Shown here piece after piece: positions 46,101 to 60,074 of a stretch of 64,000 nucleotides of DNA. Source of the DNA: [Phialemoniopsis] sp. UDSM-2020 (taxonomy: Eukaryota; Ascomycota; Sordariomycetes; Thyridiales; Thyridiaceae); assembly GCA_018873225.1 (NCBI GenBank), contig JAEILZ010000007.1, forward strand, positions 434,001 through 498,000, written 5' to 3'. The notes beneath the pieces are model-generated. The model worked only from the letters and a program-made list of their open reading frames with translations. It was not told the origin of the DNA and searched no databases. A program made the position numbers and the translations under genes. Within the stretch, counting starts at the first letter, position 1. The number at the start of each line of letters is the position of its first letter.

Positions 46101-47324
46101 GATCTCGAGAGAGCTGGAGATCCTCCACACTTTGGCTCGTACTTAAGTACCTAAGTTTAGAACAGCCACCAAAGTCTGTTGTGTGGCTGCCTGCGCCTGG
46201 CCACAGGTCCAGCCCTAAGCCAACAAACCCAAAATAATAATAATGAAGCCTAGGTAGGCAAATACACGTACCTATCTACAGTAGACTTGGCAGGGCACGT
46301 TGTTGCAGAGATTTCGAGACTCGAAAAAGAATGGTCCACTGGAACAGGAACAGTCCACCTGCAAGAGGCACGCCCGGAAGAGCATCCTCCTCAGTGGTGC
46401 AAATGTCGCCTTTTCGCCTCCGGGACAAAGTAGACTCGTAGGCAGAGCGGGAAGCATTCCAATAGTGCGCCCATTCCGTGGCTCCCCTTTCGCTCTCTCC
46501 TGTCTCCTGTCTCCCTGCAGTAGGGAGAAACAACAGAGTGGGACCCTCTGTTGGCTTTCTGACGGATTCATCCTGTTTCCCCTTTGTTCTCCACTGTGGG
46601 CTTTTTGCAGGCGTATGCAGCAGTGCGTGTATGCGTGGGTTTCACCCCTGTCCGAGCCGGATGGCACAGCTACCTTCCGTGCTTTTCTCCTTTGGGACGA
46701 CCTCTGCCTCCGTGGCCCCGCCCATCCACCAATCGCAGGCCGTAGCCGCACCTCCTGGCCAAGAGCGAGGCCAATGCAACCAGCGAGCACGGCACCATGG
46801 ACACCATGGGGCGGGCACGGGTACCTTGATTGATGTACCTGTGGTGCCTGAGGCTTCAAAGTCTCACCCCCTTTGAACACAACGTGTCCTCAATACAAAA
46901 GAAGCCAGACCTCCCAGACCTTCCCACCACTGCCTACCCTACCCTACTGTTGTTGCCTACACCAGACCAAAACGAAAGACGACACTCTGTCCTCTTCTCG
47001 TGTCCCTCATCTCCGAACGATCCTCAGCCACAGGCTGTCACATTCTTTGACAACCCACCGGGCCGTTGACTCATCAATCCACCCACACAGGGGCGACGTT
47101 GTCACACTCTTTCCCATGATGAACCGCCATTAGTGGGGTTTTGACTTGCTATTAGAGGCTTTAGGACGGCACCTCGATAACCCAGCGTCATCACCCCCGA
47201 TTTCTGCTTTGCTCACACCAGTTTTTTTTTTTGTCTGCAGTATCCATTTCCCGCCGCAGACAAAACATCACGCAAACAGCAAAATCACCAACACATACAC
47301 AAGTCCTCCTCGAAACATTTCAAG
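43145..47324. other. Long gene-poor stretch; right end is the hac1 promoter and leader
   Basis: In 4.2 kb I find no frame with family features. The 202-aa minus frame at 46272-46880 has a composition unlike a folded protein and lies where the hac1 promoter and leader would be. Sequence from about 46900 is C/T/A-rich as in long fungal leaders, and a T-run at about 47221 is followed by CTGCAG. Confidence 0.45.
47116..47133 (+). promoter_or_regulatory. Five-codon upstream ORF in the hac1 leader
   Basis: Two consecutive ATGs are followed by three sense codons and TAG (MMNRH), 192 nt before the hac1 ATG. Leader uORFs that hold back translation of the uninduced message are known for hacA/hac1 of Aspergillus and Trichoderma. 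Action here is inferred. Confidence 0.5.
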
Positions 47325-48640
47325 ATGGAGTCCTGGGATAGCTTTACGCCATCCCCCGACATGAAGCTCGAGGCCTCACCGGCCGAGTCCTTCCTCTCCG
47401 TCCCTGGCGACATGTACCCATCCCTCTTCTCGGCGTCAAACACGCTGAACCCCCTCGAGATCATGTCGCCCTCGTCCGACATGAAGGCCGAGGCCGAGAC
47501 CCCCTCCGCCCTCGCCACCGTTCCTGAGGAGGAGGATGAGTCGACCGAGTCACCGGCGGCCGCCGGCGACAAGAAGCCCACCAAGAAGAGGAAATCATGG
47601 GGCCAGGTCCTCCCAGAGCCCAAGACCAACCTCCCTCCCAGGAAACGGGCCAAGACCGAAGACGAAAAGGAGCAGCGCCGCGTCGAGCGTGTCCTCCGCA
47701 ACCGGAGAGCCGCACAGTCATCGCGCGAGCGCAAGAGGCAAGAGGTCGAGGCCCTCGAGAAGCGGAACAAGGAGCTCGAGAACCACCTCGAAGACGCCCG
47801 CCGCACCAACATGCTGCTCCTCCAGCAGCTGAAGGCGGTCTCCGGTGGCTCGGCCATCGTTAGCCGGCCCACCTCGATCGACTCCCTCCACCCCAACGCC
47901 GTCACATTCTCCCAGCCTCTCTTCGCCTCCCAAGGCGGCCACGGCTCATCACTCGTCGAGCAGGGCAACCCCTCTCTCGACAGCCTCTTCACCATGTCTT
48001 CCGAGTCCAACAAGACGGTGAACCCGGCATCCCTGTCACCGGCCCTCACCCCAGTTCCCGACCAGACCGAGACGACGGAGCCAGCGACGACGGCAGCCCC
48101 GGCTGCGGAGGCCACCACAAACGAGCAGACTTCTCCCGACCTGACACAACATCCTGCAGAGGTGTTGTGCCCCGACCTGCAGTGTCAGTCGGCGGAAGTG
48201 CCTCGGTCGTGGACGGCCTCCCAGCAGCCCCTCTCGCCGGCGCTAGCTCTGTACTGTCAGCTCACCCTTTTGCTGGCATCGACCTCGACCATGATCTCGA
48301 TATGCAGGCGGCCCTTGACGCAGATCGCTATGTCCTTGAAAGCGGGCTTCTCTCTTCCCCCAACTCAGTCGATTCTGAATACGATTATATGGTTGGTAAC
48401 GCAGAGTTCCCGGGCTTCTCGACGGCAAACCCGTTCGACTTCGACATCAACGAGTACCTCCACGACGAGACGGCAAACCAGCAGTCCAGCAACGCCCTCG
48501 CCGGCTTCGCAGCTGCCTCGGACCCGTCGCCCCTCGACCCTGAGACTCAGGCTTCTCCGGAAGATCCTAACCTGCAGCCCCATCTTGGCGCGTCCTCTTT
48601 TGGATGCGACGATGGAGGTCTTGCGGTTGGTGCGTTCTGA
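47325..48640 (+). CDS. hac1: bZIP unfolded-protein-response regulator Hac1/HacA
   Basis: The induced product joins 47325-48156 and 48180-48640 by removal of a 23-nt unconventional intron, giving 430 aa. The bZIP region is at residues 112-170: basic part ERVLRNRRAAQSSRERKR, then a leucine zipper. The N-terminus is acidic with KKPTKKRKSWGQVLP, typical of HacA. After splicing the frame shifts to an acidic Ser/Asp-rich activation end (DLDMQAALDADRYVLESG, then ANPFDFDINEYL). Unspliced, the first frame stays open to 49046 and would give a 573-aa protein with a Ser/Thr/Arg-rich tail. Hac1 activates ER chaperone and secretion genes in the nucleus. Splicing is done by Ire1, at the loops annotated separately. 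Confidence 0.95.
48145..48190 (+). promoter_or_regulatory. Ire1 cleavage stem-loops flanking the 23-nt hac1 intron
   Basis: Two 7-nt loops fit the Ire1 consensus CNG/CNGN. The first is CTG/CAGA at 48154-48160, on a 9-bp stem (CACAACATC with GGTGTTGTG). The second is CTG/CAGT at 48177-48183, closed by GAC/GTC. Cuts after 48156 and 48179 remove 23 nt and shift the frame, as required. Confidence 0.88.
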
Positions 48641-49763
48641 GGAGACACTTGCAGGCCTCGACCGGGTCGGTAGGGACGACGGATCCAACGCGGCGGCGGA
48701 GCCCGGATCTACGGGCGATGTCGAGCTGGACGGCCGGTGGCTCCCCGGAGCCGCTTTACCGTCGATGGAGGTCCTGCTCACGCTCGCGTGGGCGCTCAAG
48801 GTCGAAATACGGCGCATGAGCACTCGAGAAGGACCCGATGGAACCATCAACACTACCAAAACTATGACCGCGTCACCACCACGGCCCGGCGTGTCATCAA
48901 GTGTCGTTGTACCAATGACCACCACCACCACAAGCAAAGAATTGTATTCATTAAAGACGAGGAAGAGGGTGCGCGTTGACTTTGAAGAGGTGGCTGTCGC
49001 TGGCGCTGGGAAGCGCCGGTGTCGTCGCCGCTTGGGACAGGACTGAATTGGTCTATTACGAGTTTCCTTTTATCATCAAAGCTTTGAAAATCATCATGAA
49101 GCATTTTGGCGGGGACCAAAACAACCTTTGAAAACACCAGAGACACTTGATCTGGGTAGGCGTCATGGGAGGGTTATGGGATGAGGCTAGCGATTGTGCT
49201 GCTTCTCTCCCCAAATGGAGTCGGGCTGAGCGAAACTTCGTGTACAAGTAGTGTACTGCAAATGAAGAGGACTCTTTTGTTCTTTATATGACTTGTATTG
49301 TTCTTGATATTTGTGCCTTTGTGATTTGTGCCTTGTCCATGTAAAGGAGTGACGCCGTTGATGAGGGGTTGTGTTGAACGATGGAGGGTATCTCGGCATG
49401 TAGCATGTAGCTTTAGATAGACATAGATTGACCCTTGTCACTACGCTACAATTTGGTGCTTCGTCTTCGCTGCCGTACCTTGTCGCATGTCATGCACAAG
49501 AGCCGTGACTGATCACTAGCAGAGTAGACGGCGGTGACTGGGGAGGGCGGCGTTTTTGGACGTCTAGGCCGAAAGTGGGGACCGAGATGTGTGAGTAATG
49601 TACCCCCGTCTCGGCGTCCTGACGACAAACGCCGAACCGAATCCCACTCCGACGTCAAGCGGGTTTGACAGCCACCCTCGGCCATCTTGCACAAACCACC
49701 GAAGTTGTAATCAAGAGGTGCAGAAACCTGCTAGCAACACAGTGTTGTTCTTGGTCAGCAGAT
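48641..49763. other. hac1 3' region and promoter of the Zn2Cys6 gene
   Basis: The left 400 nt are the tail of the unspliced hac1 frame (to 49046) and should be 3' UTR of the spliced form. The rest holds no gene I can support. Confidence 0.5.
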
Positions 49764-52029
49764 ATGAGCAGGCGCGGCGCATCTAGGAGACCGAGCACAC
49801 CGCTGGACGATGACAGCCCGGGGACAAGTACACCGAGGGCGAAGTTGACTGCGTATGTTCCGGCGAGAGCGATCCTGTCTTCCGAGTATGCGGTGTGTCT
49901 GACACTGGATAGATGTCAACGATGCCACGCGCGAAAAGTCAAGTGTGATGGCCGTACTCCGTGCATCGCTTGTGTGCGCGCCGAGCGTGGTGCGGAGTGC
50001 ACCTACACGAAGCGGGATCGGCAGGTCAAGGTTAAGCAGAGGTCTGTACTTTCAAAAGCTTCGTAGAGGATCAGTACTAATATTTGTGCACCTCTTGTAG
50101 CTATATCGACCGGTTACTCGCCGAGAATGCCCAGTTGCGTCAAAGCAAGCAGTTGAGCAGGATTGCAGAGCAACCTACTGCTCATGCTGCAACCTCTTCG
50201 AGCGCCGGGCAAAGTGAAGGACCCGTGCACAACCCTCTGTTCGATGACCGTCCATGGTTCCTCCGCATCAGCGCCTCCGATGCCCCGGTGCTCATAGGCG
50301 AGGCCGCAGACGCCGCCTTCGCCACCCGCTTCCGCCAGGTCCTCTCGGACACCCCGGCCGGGCATATCCCGCGCCTGCATTACCCGTCCGACGACACGAT
50401 CCTGTCCCTTGCAAATTCACACGTCCCCATTCCCAGTGCCGGTCGTACGAGATTGTTGCTCAGGTCTGCCTTGAATGCATTGAACGGACGATATCACATG
50501 GTGCTGAAGAGCGCCGTGATCGAAGGCCTGGAAAGGTTTCTGCAGAACCCTTCTAGTTGCGGGCTTTTGCTTACGTGTAAGCTTTGGGCGCTGTTTGCGC
50601 TCGGGGAGCTGTTCTCCGCGAGGTCTGCGTCTTCTGGCCTGGAGTTTCCGGGTCTGCCCTACTTTGCTCAGGCGTCCAAGGTTATGCAGGCTCTTCAGGA
50701 GCGGCCGTGTATCGATTCCATTGAAGTGTTGCTTCTTCTCGTATGCCACCTCTCTCCACTCTGGATGCATATCGTGCTGACACTTGGAGTAGTCTTTGTA
50801 CGCGCTGTGCTCCAACAGACGGCACTCGGCATCTTGTCTCTCCAGCTCCGCGGTACGCCTGGGCATCGTGATGGGTCTGCATCTAAATGTGGCCGAGGCA
50901 CACCTCAGCGGCAGGGCCAAGAGAGAACACCGAAACCGCGTATGGTGGACGGCCTACGAGTTCGACCGCCTGATTACCTCGAGCTTGGGACAGCCCGCAT
51001 CGGTCAACGACTGCGATATACAGGTCGATCTGCCCAGCAGCGCGGGCTTGCCCGACGATCCCCAAGGAGACTTTGCCAATGCGGACTTCTTCGTCGCGCA
51101 CATCCAGCTGGCCGAGATCGCGGGGCATATAGCTTCGTCTCTGTACGGGCGCCGCACGCACAATGACCATTTTGCGCACCGGGTACAGCAGGCGCTCAAG
51201 AAGCTGCAGGGCTGGGTGAAGAATCTACCAGAGGGGCTGCAGATCGAAAAGTTTCAGTCCTCGCAGGCGGTGCCCCCTCGGGTTCGGACATTGCATCTTT
51301 CTTTTAATCAGGTATGTGTACACTATATCTACCAGAACTCGGTCTGAAGCTGATAGTCAACAGCGAATGATCTTTGCAACACGGCCCGTCCTTCTCTACA
51401 CCCTCTCCCTACGACGGCAAAACGAGCGCAGTCCCGATCCCCCGTCCCAAGTCGACATACCAGAGGAAGTGCAAGGGATCGCGCAAGCCTGCATCCGGTG
51501 CGCCCGGCACTCGCTGTCCATGCTCATGGAGTGCTGGGTCGACGGCTCCTTCACCACTTTTGACTACTCCCCCATCCAGTGGCTCTTCTCGGCCACCACC
51601 GTGCTGTCCATATCGGCTCTGCTCGGCGGCGGCGGCGACGCCCAGAAGGACGAGGAGGATTTCGAGCTGATGGTGCAGTTCCTCGCGGACCTCGAGCGCA
51701 ATGGGAACCTCGCTGCTACGGAGTTCTGTCAGCATATCGCGGCTGCAAAGGCGATCATTGCTGCGCAACCTTCACGGAGCAGAGAGGATAATCACGATGG
51801 AGTGCAGACCATGTCGACAACAAGCGCTGCGCTACCAGACATCGCTGACATTGCTTACCCGGTGCCTACGTTTGGCCCCTCAGTATCGCTCATGACTGCC
51901 GAGATGGCGCTGGCTCAGCCTTCGGTGCAGGCTTTTCTCTCTCAGGCGGATCCTAGTCTGCAGGATATCGACATGTCGATGCTTGATGCTGGACTGGAAA
52001 ACTTTTACTGGCCCGAGGATATTGTGTAG
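49764..52029 (+). CDS. Zn2Cys6 transcription factor, candidate cluster regulator
   Basis: The model joins 49764-49852, 49913-50041, 50101-50740, 50793-51311 and 51364-52029, giving 680 aa. The first intron (60 nt, no stop) splits the zinc cluster, and splicing gives ACQRCHARKVKCDGRTPC with Cys at 31, 34, 41, 47, 50 and 59, which is CX2CX6CX5CX2CX8C. A short linker and coiled coil (YIDRLLAENAQLRQ) follow. The fungal-trans domain shows SLYALCSNRRHSA, VRLGIVMGLHLN and RNRVWWTAYEFDRL (about residues 300-370). The C-terminus is acidic (DIDMSMLDAGLENFYWPEDIV), a likely activation region. It is the first gene of the candidate RiPP cluster and ends 130 nt from the convergent aminotransferase gene. 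Confidence 0.9.
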
Positions 52030-52158
52030 ATGGGACTTGACCCGTGTGTTCGTTGTATTATTAATAGTTGAACTATGATACCACAGGCATGAACGCGGGC
52101 ACGTAACTCCTATAGCTATCTCCTGTGTAATGCTGAGGTACACCCCTATCGATATATC

Positions 52159-53615
52159 CTAATGATCACTGTTTCTCCTCGTCCAAAGAACCTGTTGAAA
52201 CGCGTCGGCCACATAATCAACATTATTCTCTGTCACTACCCACCCAGCCGATGGTCAGCATTACCCAGGTAAGGGGAACATCCTACTTACAACCCGTCAC
52301 AGAAAGCCTCCCGGACGGTAGGAGATATACGTGATACTTTGCCCGCAGTTCCATAACCTGTGTCGCAGACAAGCCGGTCATGGAGAACATGCCGATCTGT
52401 CTGCCGTCAGCCAAATAATTCATTCCACTTCGGCTCTTGTCCAACTTACGTCGGAGAGCAAGTGTTCCCAAGAGCCAGGAACACATCTGCTCTGCAGACC
52501 ATCGTACAGCCTCCTCCGCATCCTCTTCATGCGCTCGCTCATGAATGTCAAGTCCTTGAGCCACTGCTTATAAAGCTCTGCATCCCCAAAGATCTCGGAG
52601 ACTATCCGCGCGCCGTAAGATGGGCAGGACGTGATCTCCGCTCGCGATATGCGCGCCAGATCCGGCATCACCTTGGCAGCAATGTCTCGCCCGGCCGTGA
52701 CGACGTGTAGTGCTCCTACGCGCTCTCCGTACAGACCAAAGTTCTTGGAAAAGGATTGCGCTACTGCGAACTCTAGATCCGGCTGGTCGAAGAAGTGCCT
52801 GATGGCCCAGGCGTCGTTGTCTAGGTCGCCTGAGGCGAAGCCTTGGCTGCATGAAAGTATCAGCGTTTCGTGCTAGATCGTGTTGGCGAATCGGGAGAGG
52901 AGACTTACTACGCCATGTCAAACAATGCAAACAGGCCTTTCTCCCTGCAAATCTTCGCGACCTGCTCCCATTGACTCCGGTTCAAGTCAAGCCCCGTCGG
53001 GTTGTGCGCACAGGCGTGGAGAAGGACTACATCTCCAGGCGTCGTGCACTTGCTCAGCGTGTGGATCATCCGGTCAAAGTCTAAAGTCTGATTCTCCCGG
53101 TTCAAGTAAGGGTAGAATCTCCGAGCAACACTTGCATCGGCCTGCTCCCATATCTCGACGTGGTTGATCCAGCTCGGGTCGGAGATCCACACCACCCTCG
53201 GCTTGAGTCTGGTGGAAAGAAATTTGGCCGCGATGTGGTTGGCGCCCGTGCCGGAGACGGTCTGTATCGTGACGACGCGGGATAGGTCCCTGTCTCGCCC
53301 AAACACAAGCTTTCGTGAGCCGGACAGGAGTCCGAGGTGGCCGATCAGTGGCAGATGTTCGTGGTCGAGGTCTGGGTTTGCGTGGATGCGTTCCTTAGCC
53401 TGCGAACCATATCTTCAGCAACCATGGTCCTGGATTGTAAGTTTCGTAAACCGTACCTTGGCAACGGAGGGCAGAACCCATGGCTTCGCGTTTTCATCTC
53501 GATAGAAGCCAGGGCAAAGGTCAACCTTGTGTTCGTCCTTGTCGGCCGCAAACGCAGCCACTAGGGAGAACGCCGGGTCAGGTTGCGATGGGGGAAGATT
53601 GGCAAAGTACGACAT
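52159..53615 (-). CDS. Aspartate-type aminotransferase (PLP, fold type I)
   Basis: The model is the complement of 52159-52235, 52291-52396, 52450-52846, 52909-53399 and 53457-53615, giving 409 aa with consistent phases. It starts MSYFANLPPSQPDPAF, then VDLCPGFYRDE, VQTVSGTGANHI-type sequence (TIQTVSGTGANHIAAKF), SDPSWINH, HACAHNPTGLDL, FALFDMAYQGFASGDLD, and the PLP lysine Lys251 in QSFSKNFGLYGERVG. The family normally moves amino groups between aspartate or aromatic amino acids and 2-oxoglutarate. The length (about 410 aa) is that of a cytosolic enzyme, and no targeting peptide is visible. Set between a Zn2Cys6 regulator and an MFS exporter, it is probably a cluster enzyme and not the housekeeping copy. 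The substrate is unknown. Confidence 0.92.
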
Positions 53616-54104
53616 GACGGTCAATCAACTCTTGCTCGCTGCACATCGAGAAATGCATATACTTATGGACCAAGTCTATTCGGCTTTGTGGTCTTTGGTT
53701 ATATATCTACTCCATGAACAGGTCTTCAATGCATCCACCATCCCTCTCGAAGAAAAGGACCCTCTCGGCGCATCATCACACTTCGCCGACAACAACAGCG
53801 CGGCAGAGGCACATCTTCACATGGAAGCCCAACAGCCGCGACCCATGCCTCATGATGACAATTCGAGAGACGCGATTGCAAGGGCGGGCGCCGAAACCGG
53901 GACCACTCTTCTCCACTTTGGCCCATCCAAGGTTCGGCGCGTGCGCCAAAACCGCCGAGAGTACGGACATACCCGAGCTGTTTCCGGCCGGGTACGTCCT
54001 GTAAAAACACTTCCGTTTCCAATCCTTGATTCATTCAGAATCGCAATCCCTCCTCTCCTCTTGGCACTGTCTTCTGGAAATGAGCCGGCAAGCCTCGAGA
54101 GACA
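53616..54104. promoter_or_regulatory. Divergent promoter of aminotransferase and MFS exporter
   Basis: This 489-nt stretch lies between two divergent start codons. Shared control by the cluster regulator is likely here. I see CGG triplets but no clear paired site. Confidence 0.4.
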
Positions 54105-55853
54105 ATGCAGGCCACCACCACGGACAAGCCGGCCTCGGAGCAGCCGCCGCCTCCCACCGAGCTCCTTACGACGACACCGCTCCCGCCGCTGCCCGCCAGC
54201 AATGACGTGCCCAAGTACGAGCTGCCCACCTGGCGGCGGTACATGGTGCTCTTCGTCATCAGCTGGATGACCTTTGTCATCACCTGGTCGAGCACGTCGC
54301 TCTTCATCGCGACCAACGAGATCGCGCGCGAGTTCGGCACGACGCCGGCCACGCTCAACGTCATGAACGCCGCCGTCTTTGTGCTCATGGGCCTGTCGTC
54401 GCTCTTCTGGGTGCCGCTCGGCCGCATCTGGGGCCGCCGGGCGAGCTACATCGCCGCCACGGTCATCGTGCTCGGCGCGTCGGTCGGCATGGCGCTGGCG
54501 CCGAATATTGCGGCGTTTACGGCGATGCGTCTATTGAGTGGGCTGCCGGGGACGTACTTTATGGTGGCTGGGCAGACTATTCTGACTGACATTTTTGCTC
54601 CGGTGCGTTTGGCCTCGTGCTTGGTTTTTTTCTTGAGGACGGTAGACCCGGGAATACAAGGTCGCTGACTACCCTGTGACATAGACTGAACGAGGTCGAG
54701 CAAATGGTTTCTTCATGACTGGCTCTGTTTCCGGTCCAGCCATTGGTATTGCGCCCTCTGTCGAATGAGCCCAGCATTCTCAGACTGTGCACTGACAAGC
54801 TGTGATATAGGACCCTGCATATCCGGCGTTATCGTGACGTTCACGAACTGGAGGTTCATATATTGGGTGCAGACTGGGATGGTCGTTCTTGGCTTGGTAT
54901 TTTCAGTACTCTTCGTCGCAACTATGCCGAATAAGCACGACGAATATGTGGCTGTCAAGACACCGGGCTCTGACCTGGGCGATCAATTGCTGAATCTGGC
55001 CTCCATATTCGATCCGCGCGGAACCTTCAGGCAGTTCTTGGTGGTTAAGATCCTCCTAGCGGTATGTTTGATCGTTGTCACTTGAATACGCGGTGAGAAT
55101 ACTGACATCTCTGTCTCCACAGCATCTTGTTTGTGGCTTCCTCGCAGTAACCCAGTACGGCCTCCTTGCCTCGATCCGATACATTATCAACCCGCGCTTC
55201 AACCTCTCCACTCCGCTCGTCGCAGGTCTATTCTACATCGCGCCGGGTGTAGGCTTTATAGCCGGCAGCATCATCGGCGGGCAGCTGTCTGACCGCACGG
55301 TCAAGCGGTACATCGCCAAGCGAGATGGTCTGCGCATCCCGCAGGACCGCCTTAACAGCGGGCTGATCGGACTGTTGGTGATACTGCCGATCTGGATGCT
55401 CATCTTTGGCTGGACCTTACAGAAGGAAGTGGGAAGCCTGGCACTGCCCGTTGTGAGTGCCTTTTGGATCGGGGCTGGCCTGATGGGGACGTTCAATGGA
55501 TTGAACACATATGCTGCAGGTAATGATGAACTCTTCTTCCCTACATTGTTACTGCTCCGCCTTGCTAAATACCAACGTTGCACAGAAGTGTTACCGTCTC
55601 AACGGCTAGAGGTTATTGGGGCCAAGTACATGATGCAATACGCATTTGGTGCAACCAGCACGGCAGCCGTGATACCCCTCATCCAAGCGATTGGAGTGGG
55701 AGCAGCCTTTACGATATGTAAGTCATTTTTCGTCTAGATTTGACAGTCACCTAAAGTAGTCACTGACTTCTCACAGTTGTGCTCCTGGACATCGCTGGTG
55801 GAGTATGCGTATTGTTCATTGCAAGATTCATGAAAGTAGAGAAGGGCGACTGA
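54105..55853 (+). CDS. MFS transporter (DHA1-like), candidate product exporter
   Basis: The model joins 54105-54602, 54685-54745, 54811-55061, 55123-55519, 55586-55717 and 55777-55853, giving 471 aa with phases consistent throughout. A proline-rich N-terminal tail (about 40 residues) precedes TM1 (YMVLFVISWMTFVITWSS). The loop 2-3 motif reads VPLGRIWGRR, TM4-5 carries RLLSGLPGTYFMVAGQTILTDIF then TERGRANGFFMTGSVSGPAIGP (motif C region), and WRFIYWVQTG follows. The second half has IIGGQLSDRTVKR. This is the 12-TM drug:H+ antiporter type. It is divergent from the aminotransferase and convergent with the precursor gene, and so is the natural exporter of the cluster. Confidence 0.9.
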
Positions 55854-56113
55854 TCTACAGCTTTTCTTCTTTACGTCAAGCTAGGACTATGAATGCAATG
55901 ACTATGTTCTCTTGACGGGCCATCATTCCCGATGATTTCAAAACTCTTCGGAGACTGGGCCTGAGAATTTCACAAAACGATTGTCGAAGTGAATCCAGCA
56001 GCATCTACAGCCTGGCATAAGCTCTCACTCGAACGCCGAACTCAACTACTCCCGGCTTCACGAGCTTGCGGTCGCCTTTGAGTGAACCCGCTTGGCAGTC
56101 TCATACCAGCCCT

Positions 56114-56717
56114 CTACTTCTTCTCGGGAGCAACAGAAGGAGGAATGGGGTAGATGTAGTCGGCAGCCTCAGCTCGCTTCTCGGGAGCGTCAGAAGCAGG
56201 GATGGGGTAGATGTAATCAGCCGCCTTCTCACGCTTCTCGGGGGAGACCGAGGGCGGAATGGGGTAGATGTAGTCTGCGGCCTCGGCTCGCTTCTCAGGG
56301 GCATCGGAAGCGGGAATGGGGTAGATATAATCCGCAGCCTCAGCTCGCTTCTCGGGAGCATCGGAGGCAGGGATAGGGTAGATGTAGTCTGCAGCCTTCT
56401 CACGCTTCTCAGGAGCAACGGAGGGAGGAATCGGGTAGATATAGTCGGCAGCCTCAGCTCGCTTTTCGGGAGCGTCAGAAGCGGGGATGGGGTAGATGTA
56501 GTCCGCTGCCTCCGCGCGCTTCTCGGGGGAGACTGAAGGCGGGATGGGATAGATGTAGTCGGCGGCTTCAGCCCGAGCGGCGTTCTTGTCCTGCGAAGCG
56601 TATTAGCGGTCGAAGGGGTCTAGAGCAGAAGTTTGCCTTTTCTTTACTCACGCCGAGAGGAGCAGCGCTGGCCAGGATGGCCAGGGAGCAGGTCGAAATC
56701 AGGACGGAGACCCTCAT
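56114..56717 (-). CDS. Kex2-processed repeat precursor, candidate dikaritin-type RiPP precursor
   Basis: The model is the complement of 56114-56590 and 56652-56717, giving 180 aa. Exon 1 encodes a signal peptide (MRVSVLISTCSLAILASAA/PLG) and a 61-nt GT-AG intron follows. Exon 2 encodes a short spacer and eight 19-residue repeats. Each has AEA or EKA, then ADYIYPIP, then PSVSPE, PSVAPE or ASDAPE, then KR (KK in the last). DYIYPIP is identical in all eight, and variation is confined to the linker and the leading dipeptide. A secretory leader, repeated cores and dibasic Kex2 sites are the layout of ustiloxin (UstA), phomopsin (PhomA) and asperipin precursors, and YIYPIP resembles the phomopsin core YVIPID. 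Absence of Trp/Cys argues against an alpha-pheromone. Two UstY-type genes lie within 3.5 kb. Confidence 0.9.
56120..56575 (-). repeat. Eight 57-nt tandem repeats inside the precursor gene
   Basis: The repeat unit is 57 nt (19 codons), repeated eight times without frame loss. Silent changes are many (GAC/GAT, TAC/TAT, CCC/CCT/CCG), while the encoded core is unchanged, which points to selection on the peptide. Confidence 0.93.
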
Positions 56718-58110
56718 GTTGATCAGAAACGGACGTGCTTGGTAACGGCGATAGAGAACCCAAAGTGGTATGATTGATTGTTTCAAGGTCCTTTTCACCG
56801 TGTTACCAGCCCGTTGGGGCGGGTGGACAGCACCGCAACACTTATATGTATGCTTCACTACGGTGCCTCCCGTTGTAAGCCGACTTGACGCAAGGTTACG
56901 ACTTCACCCCACCACAACCTGCACAGAGACTTGAGAGATCCAGCGGCGGTAGCCTTGGAGATCGTCATTGTCACTAAGTCACGCACCATAGTCACCTTCC
57001 GGTTTCATCGTTGGGCTCACTGCAGCGGCGAGAGGCACAGGGGTTCCTTGGTCGACTAGCCTCCTTCGCTGTCCTACGACTTGCGCAGTATGTGCACCCA
57101 CACCGGGACCGGGCGCCGAAGAGACCCTTCTTGCGGCGCACAGTCCTCCATCCCCGCGCCAGAGTCTATACCGTTGCGGGATAAAGAGCACCGGTTGTGT
57201 AGCGGAGGCAATTTTGCAAGATACGCTGACATGGTGGGATAATCCTCGTACTTCGTATAACCACTGGTGGACACTATCTTGGCGAAGACGGAGTTGAGCA
57301 GAACCTCGCGAATGTTCCAGTTTCCGCGGGGTTTGTCTGATAGGCCCTCTGTCCCGCCAAGCTCTTTTCGAGGATTAGCTATCAAATAGACTTAGCCGTG
57401 ATAAGCTTTCGCCTCCTTCGGCTGGTGAATAAGCATATCGATCGGGTCGACTGAAGGATTACGACACGTCTTGGGAAGGCAAAATAGGTTGCAACAAGCA
57501 CAGCAAGCAAGGTGGGGTTGTCGCCATGCCAAGAGCAAGGGATCATTGGCCCTTAAATGTCGAGACAACCAGAGACCACTTTTCTTCTCGCATGATAACC
57601 CATGGAACGGGACATGTCGTGCAAGGGATCGCCTACTCAAACAGGAAGCTTGGAGCCAACAAAGCGAATAAGCGCCGCCCGGGGTCTGGGCATGCCCCGC
57701 ATCGCGATACACGCAGACTTGCCGGATAAACCGATACGTATCTGCACTTCGCCGCAAACCATCAAGGGCCTGGCTGACACCTTCTAGATTCGTGTTGAAC
57801 ATCTGGATACCGGGAGGGGCTTTTGGCAGTAGAGCCTGCTTGTGGGGAAGACTGAGCCGCTTCATGGTGACGACATGAGGGGACAGTCTTTCCGCCATCC
57901 CGACAAGTTGACTCGTGGCAATCGCGATTATGTTTCTGAGGTGATACTGCACAGTAGGATTCCGCTTGCTGACCGCAACGGCGCTGATACGCCCCGGCAG
58001 ATACCGTGCCGTTTCGCAGACAGATCGTTGTCCCATTGCTTGTAGAGACACGCTGTTGCATCTGCGCATTGAACTTTGGACACTCTCAAAATATTGCCTG
58101 GCTGCTAGAC
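56718..58110. other. 1.4-kb gap between precursor and first UstY gene
   Basis: The gap holds the divergent promoters of the precursor and the UstY gene. A minus-strand frame of 291 codons (57392-58267) and another at 57074-57385 are open but show no family motif, signal peptide or HxxHC. They could be chance, a decayed gene, or an orphan gene. I do not call a CDS. Confidence 0.4.
56841..56850 (-). promoter_or_regulatory. TATA-like element of the precursor gene
   Basis: TACATATAAG on the minus strand lies about 125 nt upstream of the precursor ATG at 56717, a normal distance for a strong fungal promoter. Confidence 0.45.
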
Positions 58111-59089
58111 ATGGACAGCCCGGAACGAGATCTGGAGAAGACGGAGGGTGCTGAGGATGGGGAAGACGCAGGCTTCCTACATCACCATGCGCATAAACAG
58201 CAGCCTCAATCTCGACGCTTCCGGCGGTGGGCAGAGGGCGGCGTATTGGTCCTTCTCTGCCTCTCAATCTTCCTCAATGTCTTGACGTACATGGCGAACA
58301 AGAGGAGGGATCTCGATGACATTTGTTCCGTGTACACATCACAAAGTAGTAAGGAACTTTCACTGCAAAGATCCTCATAGTGGAGAAAAGGGCAGCTAAC
58401 AGTCCTCTAGTATCTCCGATTCAGCAAGACGTCAAGATCAAATACTCGACCGTGCAGTTCGAAGGTTCATTTTCAAAGCCCAATAGCTCCGTTTTCAGGC
58501 TACCGCCGGGCAAAGAGGTAGACGATGCTTGGTTTTCTCTGGGAGTGCAGAGTAAGTGAGACCCTTCACAAACGATCCGGGTCAATATCGGGTGCTCAAC
58601 TAACTTGCAGTCCACCCAGATCACCACTATGTAGTCCCTGAGCACCTCGCCGACAAGTTTGGTCTCAACCCAGGCCTCGCAAAGGTGACTCCGGACCTGG
58701 GAGGTGGGTTCCCAGTCTTGTTCGAGTTTGAGCACCATCTCCACTGTCTCAATCTCCTGCGACAGAGTAGTTATTGGGCATACCAGCACTACAAAGACGA
58801 AGGAAAGGGTGTCTTTGGACATCCGGAGGAGGGCATACGTGATCACGTAAACCACTGTACCGACATCCTGCGACAGCAACTCATGTGTCAGCCGGATACT
58901 GGAGTGTTTGGTCAGTACTGGGTCAAAGGAGAGAACGAACTATTCGTCGACTTCAACACCAAGCACAAATGTAAGAACTTCTGGGAGCTTAAGGACTGGG
59001 CCGTGAGCCACCAGGTCGATCCCAAGAAGTTTCGGGGCTTGGAGGTCAAGCAAAGACCAGGGGACATTGTACTAGACGAAATACCTTAG
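58111..59089 (+). CDS. UstYa-like (DUF3328) membrane protein, candidate peptide oxidase
   Basis: The model joins 58111-58348, 58411-58551 and 58611-59089, giving 285 aa with consistent phases. A cytosolic tail (His/Gln/Arg-rich) is followed by one membrane segment (about residues 43-61, GGVLVLLCLSIFLNVLTYM) and a lumenal domain. The two HxxHC motifs that mark UstYa/DUF3328 are present: HHLHC (168-172) and HVNHC (205-209), the second followed by TDILRQQLMC as in the family. UstYa and UstYb are needed for oxidative macrocyclisation of ustiloxin and act in the secretory pathway. Next to a KEP-type precursor this is the best evidence for the cluster. It converges with a second UstY-type gene 121 nt away. 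Confidence 0.93.
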
Positions 59090-59210
59090 AGTTCGATCTG
59101 TTAAAATTGTAGGTCGTGTCGAAGACAGTCGCTGCTGTATGCTCTTTTATGTATATTGGTGAATAATTAATGGTAAATGACACAACTTGACTTGACCTCT
59201 CGGTCATGAT

Positions 59211-60074
59211 CTACGAGACTCTTTTGCACCAGCCCATACCAAACTCCAAAGCCACAACTCCGTGCTTCCACTTCTCGTAATTCATCAAGACATTTTGGCA
59301 GTGATTGGCATGCGGCCGGCCCATGGCCTCCTCGTGCGCATAGACGTGCTTCTCGCCGGCCGCGACCCTCTCCATGCTCCGCAGCGCGGCGCGGAACATG
59401 TACAGGCAGTGCGCGACGTGGAAATTCTCGATCGAGTACGCGATCAGGCGCTCCCCCTTGTCGAACTTGTCGATAAAGAACTGCTCGAGGTCCTCGAGCG
59501 GGATGTAGCTCTCGGGCGACAGCGACTCGTCCGAGTGCCACGTAAAGTTGGACATGGACACGGCGCGCTTGGGGGAGTAGTCGAGCGTCACGTTGGACGC
59601 GTGGTGCATGGAGGCAGCCTCCTTGGCAAAGTCCTCGTGGTAGCAAGGGCGTGGGATCCAGACGGCCGACATGATGTCGAAGACGCAGCCGCGCTCTCTG
59701 GCCTGGTGCGGCGAGTGGCCGCACGAAGTCCACTCGCCCGACGGGGTCTTCCAGCGACTCTTCTGGTCACGGTAGTTGTCTTGCGATGCCAGGTCCGACG
59801 AGTAGCGGAAGTTGAAGTAAGGGTCCGCATCTTTGGATGAGGCTGTGGGGAGTTGGCTGTTTTGCGAGCGGATGAATTGGATGGATGCTGCGAGGAAGGA
59901 GATGCAGCTGAGAATGACTGCAAACACCACTGCGAAGGTCAAGAGTCTTGATCTTGACGGTCGGTACCAGGGAGTCGCAGCCACAAGTGTATCCTGGCTA
60001 TCAGCTTCACTCTTGAAGGAGTCGCTGGAATCGTCGAGGCCGACGGTAGTATAATGATATTGATTTGGAGCCAT
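59211..60074 (-). CDS. Second UstY-type membrane protein (DUF3328-related)
   Basis: This is a single exon of 287 aa. The start is the ATG at 60074 (MAPNQYHYTTVGL), the first Met that gives the usual short acidic cytosolic tail. One membrane segment lies at about residues 45-66 (LTFAVVFAVILSCISFLAAS). The lumenal part has a Cys-containing block (EWTSCG then ERGCVFDIMSAVW, CYHEDF) and two HxxHC motifs, HVAHC (219-223) and HANHC (255-259), the same pair as in UstYa. It differs from the first UstY protein in its Cys-rich N-terminal half, so it is likely a distinct branch of the family. In phomopsin and ustiloxin clusters several UstY proteins work on the same peptide. The gene has no intron, unlike its neighbour. 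Confidence 0.85.
   Translation of the reverse strand: MAPNQYHYTTVGLDDSSDSFKSEADSQDTLVAATPWYRPSRSRLLTFAVVFAVILSCISFLAASIQFIRSQNSQLPTASSKDADPYFNFRYSSDLASQDNYRDQKSRWKTPSGEWTSCGHSPHQARERGCVFDIMSAVWIPRPCYHEDFAKEAASMHHASNVTLDYSPKRAVSMSNFTWHSDESLSPESYIPLEDLEQFFIDKFDKGERLIAYSIENFHVAHCLYMFRAALRSMERVAAGEKHVYAHEEAMGRPHANHCQNVLMNYEKWKHGVVALEFGMGWCKRVS

Follow-up and report, generated by a model that had tools for sequence, protein, structure and literature searches.

A Dikaritin-type Gene Cluster with the Repeated Core DYIYPIP in [Phialemoniopsis] sp. UDSM-2020

Dikaritins, a family of ribosomally synthesized and post-translationally modified peptides (RiPPs), are made from Kex2-processed repeat proteins that are cyclized by UstYa homologues (PMC10512285), and both Kex2 cleavage and cyclization are described for the family (PMC9769878, PMC10512285); here and below, published systems are represented by excerpts of the papers cited. 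By 2022, reports covered just five dikaritins (PMC10512285), compared with a prediction of 1,758 precursors that have UstY neighbors (PMC7329392), so that any well defined cluster whose core is clear can serve as a target. Among the closest described systems, the asperipin-2a cluster consists of four genes, aprA, aprY, aprT, and aprR, with no tyrosinase, methyltransferase, or P450 in the excerpted account, and its product, from the core FYYTGY, is made bicyclic by ethers between tyrosine side chains and β-carbons (PMC6514808). The phomopsin cluster combines phomA with five UstY genes (PMC6514808, PMC7329392) and encodes the core YVIPID (PMC7099791). The ustiloxin B cluster contains ustA, ustYa, ustYb, ustQ, ustM, ustF1/F2, ustD, and a P450, with the core YAIG. 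Here, these systems are compared with six genes found at positions 49,764-60,074 of a 64,000-nucleotide stretch of DNA from [Phialemoniopsis] sp. UDSM-2020 (the window, part of contig 9 in a genome of 44.2 Mb and 11 contigs): a Zn2Cys6 regulator, an aspartate aminotransferase, a major facilitator superfamily (MFS) transporter, a repeat precursor, and two UstY-like proteins termed UstYa1 and UstYa2.

The precursor and the UstY proteins

The dikaritin-type assignment proposed in the first-pass annotation is well supported by the combination of a Kex2-type repeat precursor with UstY proteins of the PF11807 family. The fuller reading, to which a probability of roughly four in five is given, is that a signal peptide would take the precursor into the secretory pathway, where Kex2 would cut after the dibasic EKR to yield peptides such as AEAADYIYPIPASDAPEKR for trimming by further peptidases. 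UstYa1, and probably UstYa2, would then act as membrane-anchored oxidases that cross-link DYIYPIP, with AEAADYIYPIPASDAP as a candidate peptide substrate. If known members are a guide, the bond would most likely run from a tyrosine phenol oxygen to the β-carbon two residues on, joining either Tyr1 to Tyr3 or Tyr3 to Ile5 of YIYPIP. Export of the product would probably fall to the MFS protein, and regulation of the pathway to the Zn2Cys6 protein.

Spliced models of the six genes were built and then scanned against Pfam; the precursor, UstYa1, and the aminotransferase were compared with public proteins, two proteins with solved structures, and five with the whole genome. The outermost start codons agree exactly with the earlier coordinates (regulator, 49,764; UstYa2, 60,074), and the regulator, aminotransferase, and transporter were all recovered beside the precursor and UstY genes where the first-pass annotation had placed them.

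The precursor begins with a hydrophobic, signal-like segment (MRVSVLISTCSLAILASA, to which a dedicated signal-cleavage predictor was not applied), directly followed in the gene by an intron of 61 bp. The core DYIYPIP is identical in all eight units that follow; the flanks vary (PSVSP, PSVAP, or ASDAP, and AEAA or EKAA), and the units end in EKR in seven cases and in EKK in the last. Tandem Repeats Finder reports a 57-bp unit (7.9 copies, score 458) and a three-unit period of 171 bp (2.6 copies, score 593). Among the repeats, the DNA of the core varies at six sites, all third-position and all synonymous. Taken over all unit pairs, the proportions of synonymous and nonsynonymous differences (pS and pN) are 0.66 and 0.00 in the seven-residue core, and 0.65 and 0.117 outside it. 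As silent sites have diverged while the core has stayed the same, this pattern points to selection on the peptide and not to fresh duplication.

No Pfam family matches the precursor at E ≤ 0.01. In the protein search, with scoring limited to the 8,000 candidates that had the most words in common, a single relative was found at E ≤ 0.001. This protein, P0001, comes from a contig of 1,001 bases and has four units, each with DYIYPIP. The core itself was not found in the full-text literature, supplementary tables lying outside that search, and YIYPIP occurred only in work that is unrelated by title; the core is likely uncharacterized.

UstYa1, encoded 1.4 kb from the precursor, matches PF11807 over profile positions 2-220 of 220 with 160.8 bits, its second intron having been set by orthologue comparison (153.3 bits with three residues extra). 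Two HxxHC motifs, a proposed mark of RiPP-related UstY proteins (PMC12048977), are present in both UstYa1 and UstYa2, as is a single strongly hydrophobic stretch (19-residue windows starting at residues 40-46 and 40-52, respectively), so that the earlier description of two membrane-anchored proteins with paired motifs is borne out. At least two HxxHC motifs also occur in 113 of the 120 UstYa1 homologues listed (best 120 of 139 matches). The closest, with 78% identity over 282 columns, is a protein of Aaosphaeria arxii (Dothideomycetes). In a FastTree phylogeny of UstYa1 with 85 of the 120 listed homologues, those of 255-310 residues, UstYa1 groups with this protein (support 0.989), and a Rhinocladiella mackenziei protein (Eurotiomycetes; support 0.999) joins them next, a mix of classes that would fit transfer between fungi.

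Nine precursor-UstYa loci and a cysteine-rich UstY class

In the genome as a whole, 34 exon-level PF11807 matches fall into 18 loci when stretches less than 15 kb apart are joined. A repeat precursor is present at nine of these, the window cluster included, a count that covers precursors near UstYa genes only (DNA read per locus: 10 kb for fifteen, 20 kb at C1, 30 kb at C8, and 18 kb in the window) and in which one precursor was seen under a looser repeat test only and those at C11 and C5:1296k are less regular. All nine cores differ: DYIYPIP, PYKITTF, QVYGAHQ, LYNNAAGWG, AYVWASP, HHQGKGKK, RNGAWG, VWLW, and YDGHQLAF. As HHQGKGKK, RNGAWG, and VWLW have no tyrosine, another residue would need to be modified in these. 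At every one of the nine loci, the precursor and the nearest UstYa gene are divergent, or head-to-head, separated by 0.9-3.0 kb from exon to exon; if this layout has a chance of one quarter and the loci are independent, nine of nine would arise by chance with a probability of about 4e-6. The number of clusters is not exceptional, as nine have also been reported for Venturia inaequalis (PMC9632046).

Three of the other UstYa loci deserve separate description. The larger cluster at C8:1879767-1888747 (L025, L026) has nine AYVWASPGKR units, four PF11807 stretches, and one cysteine-rich UstY protein; a Zn2Cys6 motif and a P450 match follow ~5-7 kb past the precursor. At C1:511783-516560 (L027, L028), a precursor of five units (SPDILYNNAAGWGRKR) is flanked by two canonical UstYa genes, and a cysteine-rich UstY is present. 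The locus at C5:4617346-4621233 (L029) carries ordinary UstYa stretches and a cysteine-rich UstY, with no repeat precursor in the 10 kb read.

Such cysteine-rich proteins appear to form a class of their own. A one-frame scan for paired HxxHC motifs around all UstYa loci found three further open frames that resemble UstYa2, and all four share CGx[ST]x3Ax4Cx8WxPx2C upstream of the HxxHC pair, a motif read from four sequences, three of them with provisional starts and possible introns. Used as genome-wide queries at E ≤ 0.01 (5 and 6 candidates scored), two of the cysteine-rich proteins returned exactly these four genes, the window copy at E values of 0.001 and 0.006; UstYa2 as the query matches itself alone at E ≤ 0.001. 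For all four, an ordinary UstYa stretch is no more than ~1.1 kb away, and three also have a precursor within 8 kb. In whole-protein scans, two of the four match PF11807 at E ≤ 1, and a four-member profile aligns with the UstYa1 relatives over the HxxHC pair with a probability of 93.9 (E = 1.6e-7), compared with 61.1 for UstYa2 alone. By its sequence, UstYa2 is thus placed in a divergent, cysteine-rich UstY class of four genes, which may or may not be equivalent to the UstYb of other authors.

New here are this class and the head-to-head layout at all nine loci. Both are simple rules, testable in other genomes, and could improve the finding of clusters. A bolder proposal joins the two: the cysteine-rich proteins would be a distinct class of dedicated partners of canonical UstYa with a reaction of their own, in this case a second cross-link in Tyr-Ile-Tyr-Pro-Ile-Pro, and a head-to-head precursor and UstYa gene with a shared promoter would be a general building rule. 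Taken as a whole, this proposal is doubtful.

Evidence against, alternative explanations, and neighboring genes

Several observations weigh against the dikaritin reading. The first-pass annotation had described eight Kex2-flanked repeats; the eight units stand, confirmed by Tandem Repeats Finder, but upstream of the first, NAAR takes the place of a dibasic site, and the end of the last is EKK. In P0001, one of the four units ends in KR and two in ER, with EE closing the last, so that cleavage there may occur at a single arginine or may be partly lost. The position two residues beyond Tyr1 is occupied by tyrosine, compared with isoleucine in ustiloxin and phomopsin; the core does not open with Y-x-I but reads Y-I-Y-P-I-P, where Y-x-I occurs only as Tyr3-Pro4-Ile5. 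UstYa2 matches PF11807 with 30.2 bits (cut-off 25) over profile positions 102-175 of 220, the motif region only, and its predicted structure is poor (a pLDDT of 56). UstY proteins are also carried by non-RiPP clusters (PMC12048977). A promoter word common to the cluster genes beyond chance was not found. In a tblastn search (E ≤ 1e-4) around the other eight precursor loci, the MFS protein and the aminotransferase had no homologue and the regulator one weak match, at C8. The regulator, MFS, and aminotransferase genes are candidate members, included by proximity alone. For the MFS protein, the nearest other places in the genome are 39% identical (90 of 192 candidates scored).

The aminotransferase raises the question of whether the pathway is of a different kind. 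It could be a true pathway enzyme that, for instance, turns an amine exposed at the N terminus of the trimmed peptide into a keto group or supplies a modified amino acid, giving a product unlike known dikaritins. N-terminal deamination is known in the dikaritin family, in asperipin-2a and victorin. The gene's position between regulator and transporter, with a divergent region of 489 bp shared with the MFS gene, still speaks for a pathway role, as does its status as a divergent paralogue: apart from its own exons, it has relatives at seven other places in the genome, with main matches 40-49% identical and short exon pieces 38-55%. Against such a role, its best solved relatives are aspartate aminotransferases, and in comparison with the cytosolic type it aligns nearly full length, over residues 3-401 to 1yaa (E = 5.1e-101) and over 4-400 to 6jpk. 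The active-site segments are kept, including what we take to be the pyridoxal phosphate (PLP) lysine and the two substrate-binding arginines. By these comparisons, the enzyme is a canonical aspartate aminotransferase. Public relatives, listed with one name per 90%-identity cluster, reach 70% identity and come from Fusarium, Botrytis, Plectosphaerella, Neofusicoccum, and others, and among the best 120 of 7,569 (six of them nameless) no Aaosphaeria or Rhinocladiella, the hosts of the closest UstYa1 proteins, is named. As the relatives listed for it do not follow those of UstYa1 and it had no tblastn homologue near the other precursors, a pathway role is on balance unlikely, and the enzyme is more likely a neighbor or supply enzyme than one that modifies the peptide.

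It is also quite unlikely that the precursor gives rise to secreted linear peptides for signaling or for the cell surface, with the UstY proteins serving something else nearby. Such a role would be in keeping with the 78% of Kex2-type repeat proteins that have no accompanying UstY genes (PMC7329392) and with the many Kex2-type peptides that seem to remain linear (PMC9769878). However, almost all precursors of the mating-factor or pheromone type lack UstY neighbors (PMC7329392), the precursor here is head-to-head with UstYa1 as at all nine loci, and the core has two tyrosines, the cross-linking residue of known members (PMC6514808). The weakest alternative, a very improbable larger cluster that takes in the adjacent nonribosomal peptide synthetase (NRPS)-like adenylation-carrier-reductase gene, draws on the 3' end of that gene (~62.5 kb) lying ~2.4 kb beyond the UstYa2 start and on its AMP-binding, PP-binding, and NAD_binding_4 domains, but a 461-residue open reading frame with no Pfam match at E ≤ 0.01 separates it from UstYa2, and no NRPS-like enzyme is named for any dikaritin in the literature excerpts covered.

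At the left border of the cluster lies a bZIP protein (47181-49046; PF07716, 27.4 bits), which we take to resemble Hac1, the unfolded protein response factor. That a regulator of secretory stress adjoins a secretory peptide cluster may be a coincidence.

Table 1. Features of the cluster, its right-hand neighbor, and related gene pairs
Feature	Position	Strand	Details
Kex2-type repeat precursor (KEP), 180 aa	56114..56717	-	Intron 56651-56591; signal-like N-terminus, eight units, core DYIYPIP
UstYa1, canonical UstY oxidase-like, 282 aa	58111..59089	+	Introns 58349-58410, 58552-58619; motifs HHLHC, HVNHC
UstYa2, divergent Cys-rich UstY-like, 287 aa	59211..60074	-	Intronless; motifs HVAHC, HANHC, plus CGHSPHQARERGC and WIPRPC
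Candidate bidirectional promoter, 1.39 kb	56718..58110		Between head-to-head precursor and UstYa1
MFS transporter, 471 aa, five introns	54105..55853	+	PF07690, 140.7 bits; candidate exporter
Zn2Cys6 transcription factor, 700 aa, three introns	49764..52029	+	PF00172, 32.6 bits; PF04082, 75.9 bits; candidate regulator
Aspartate aminotransferase, 409 aa, four introns	52159..53615	-	PF00155, 242.3 bits; doubtful pathway member
NRPS-like protein	62480 to beyond window (L009:1818)	-	AMP-binding, PP-binding, NAD_binding_4 domains
Six further head-to-head precursor-UstYa pairs	C9:2657383, C4:4051857, C11:573352, C5:1880444, C5:1296280, C6:3864377		Unrelated cores

Comparison with known dikaritin clusters

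The first-pass annotation had also expected chemistry different from that of known members, both from the missing tyrosinase, methyltransferase, and P450 and from the presence of the aminotransferase. The enzymes in question are indeed not seen. No tyrosinase-family match lies within 100 kb of any of the nine precursor-UstYa loci: the nearest is 115 kb away, that of the window cluster is 225 kb off, and three of the nine have none on their contig. A methyltransferase was likewise not found by Pfam among the six genes, methyltransferase families having been searched for neither in the flanks nor in the genome, and the same Pfam scan shows no reductase among the six. Among the P450 matches listed (92 of 280 candidates scored), none lies in the window or in the 20 kb that follow it. 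No S41 peptidase is present in the cluster, the sole PF03572 match of the genome being on contig 11. The expectation is nonetheless unsupported, because asperipin-2a is made without a tyrosinase, methyltransferase, or P450 as well, the aminotransferase belongs to the canonical aspartate type and its listed relatives do not track those of UstYa1, and the cluster is one of nine such loci without a nearby tyrosinase. Nor does the lack of tyrosinase and P450 set the cluster apart, as asperipin-2a has been assigned to a precursor, UstY, transporter, and reductase. On the comparisons available, the cluster most likely makes a small ring-shaped peptide and is an apparently uncharacterized member of a family that is known and widespread; its core sequence is new, but novel chemistry is not clearly indicated.

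How the locus fits the family depends on the definition applied. From the set of genes first proposed for dikaritins (precursor, tyrosinase, methyltransferase, several UstY genes, and a transporter or peptidase), the tyrosinase and methyltransferase are missing here and the MFS gene supplies the transporter. A later definition does not require a tyrosinase (PMC12048977), and the locus has a signal-like start with Kex2-flanked repeats and, near the precursor, at least one UstY protein (DUF3328/PF11807) with two HxxHC motifs. Aminotransferases are among the less conserved genes near the UstY gene in the lichen RiPP clan R2 (PMC12048977), which, as excerpted, differs from this locus in having acetyltransferases and one UstY gene and in lacking a repeated precursor.

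The ustiloxin B cluster likewise combines a Kex2 repeat precursor with two UstY genes and a PLP enzyme nearby, but at this locus the PLP enzyme is an aspartate-type aminotransferase of class I/II, and ustQ, ustM, and the P450 have no counterpart among the six genes. The likeness to phomopsin lies in the precursor, which in both cases has eight cores and KR sites, and in the core, which follows the pattern Y-x-x-P-I: in register, YVIPID and YIYPIP share Tyr1, Pro4, and Ile5. Unlike phomopsin, the core here has tyrosine instead of isoleucine at position 3 and proline instead of aspartate at position 6, and tyrosinase, methyltransferase, and S41 peptidase are absent from the six genes.

With asperipin-2a, the cluster shares a repeat precursor, UstY, and transporter, the lack of tyrosinase, methyltransferase, and P450, and several tyrosines in the core. 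It differs in the core itself (YIYPIP compared with FYYTGY), in having two UstY proteins instead of one, and in its other genes, with no isoflavone-reductase type among the six and with a regulator and an aminotransferase nearby. A compact, tyrosinase-free cluster whose core stands between the phomopsin and asperipin patterns would help in learning what UstY proteins do when they act alone.

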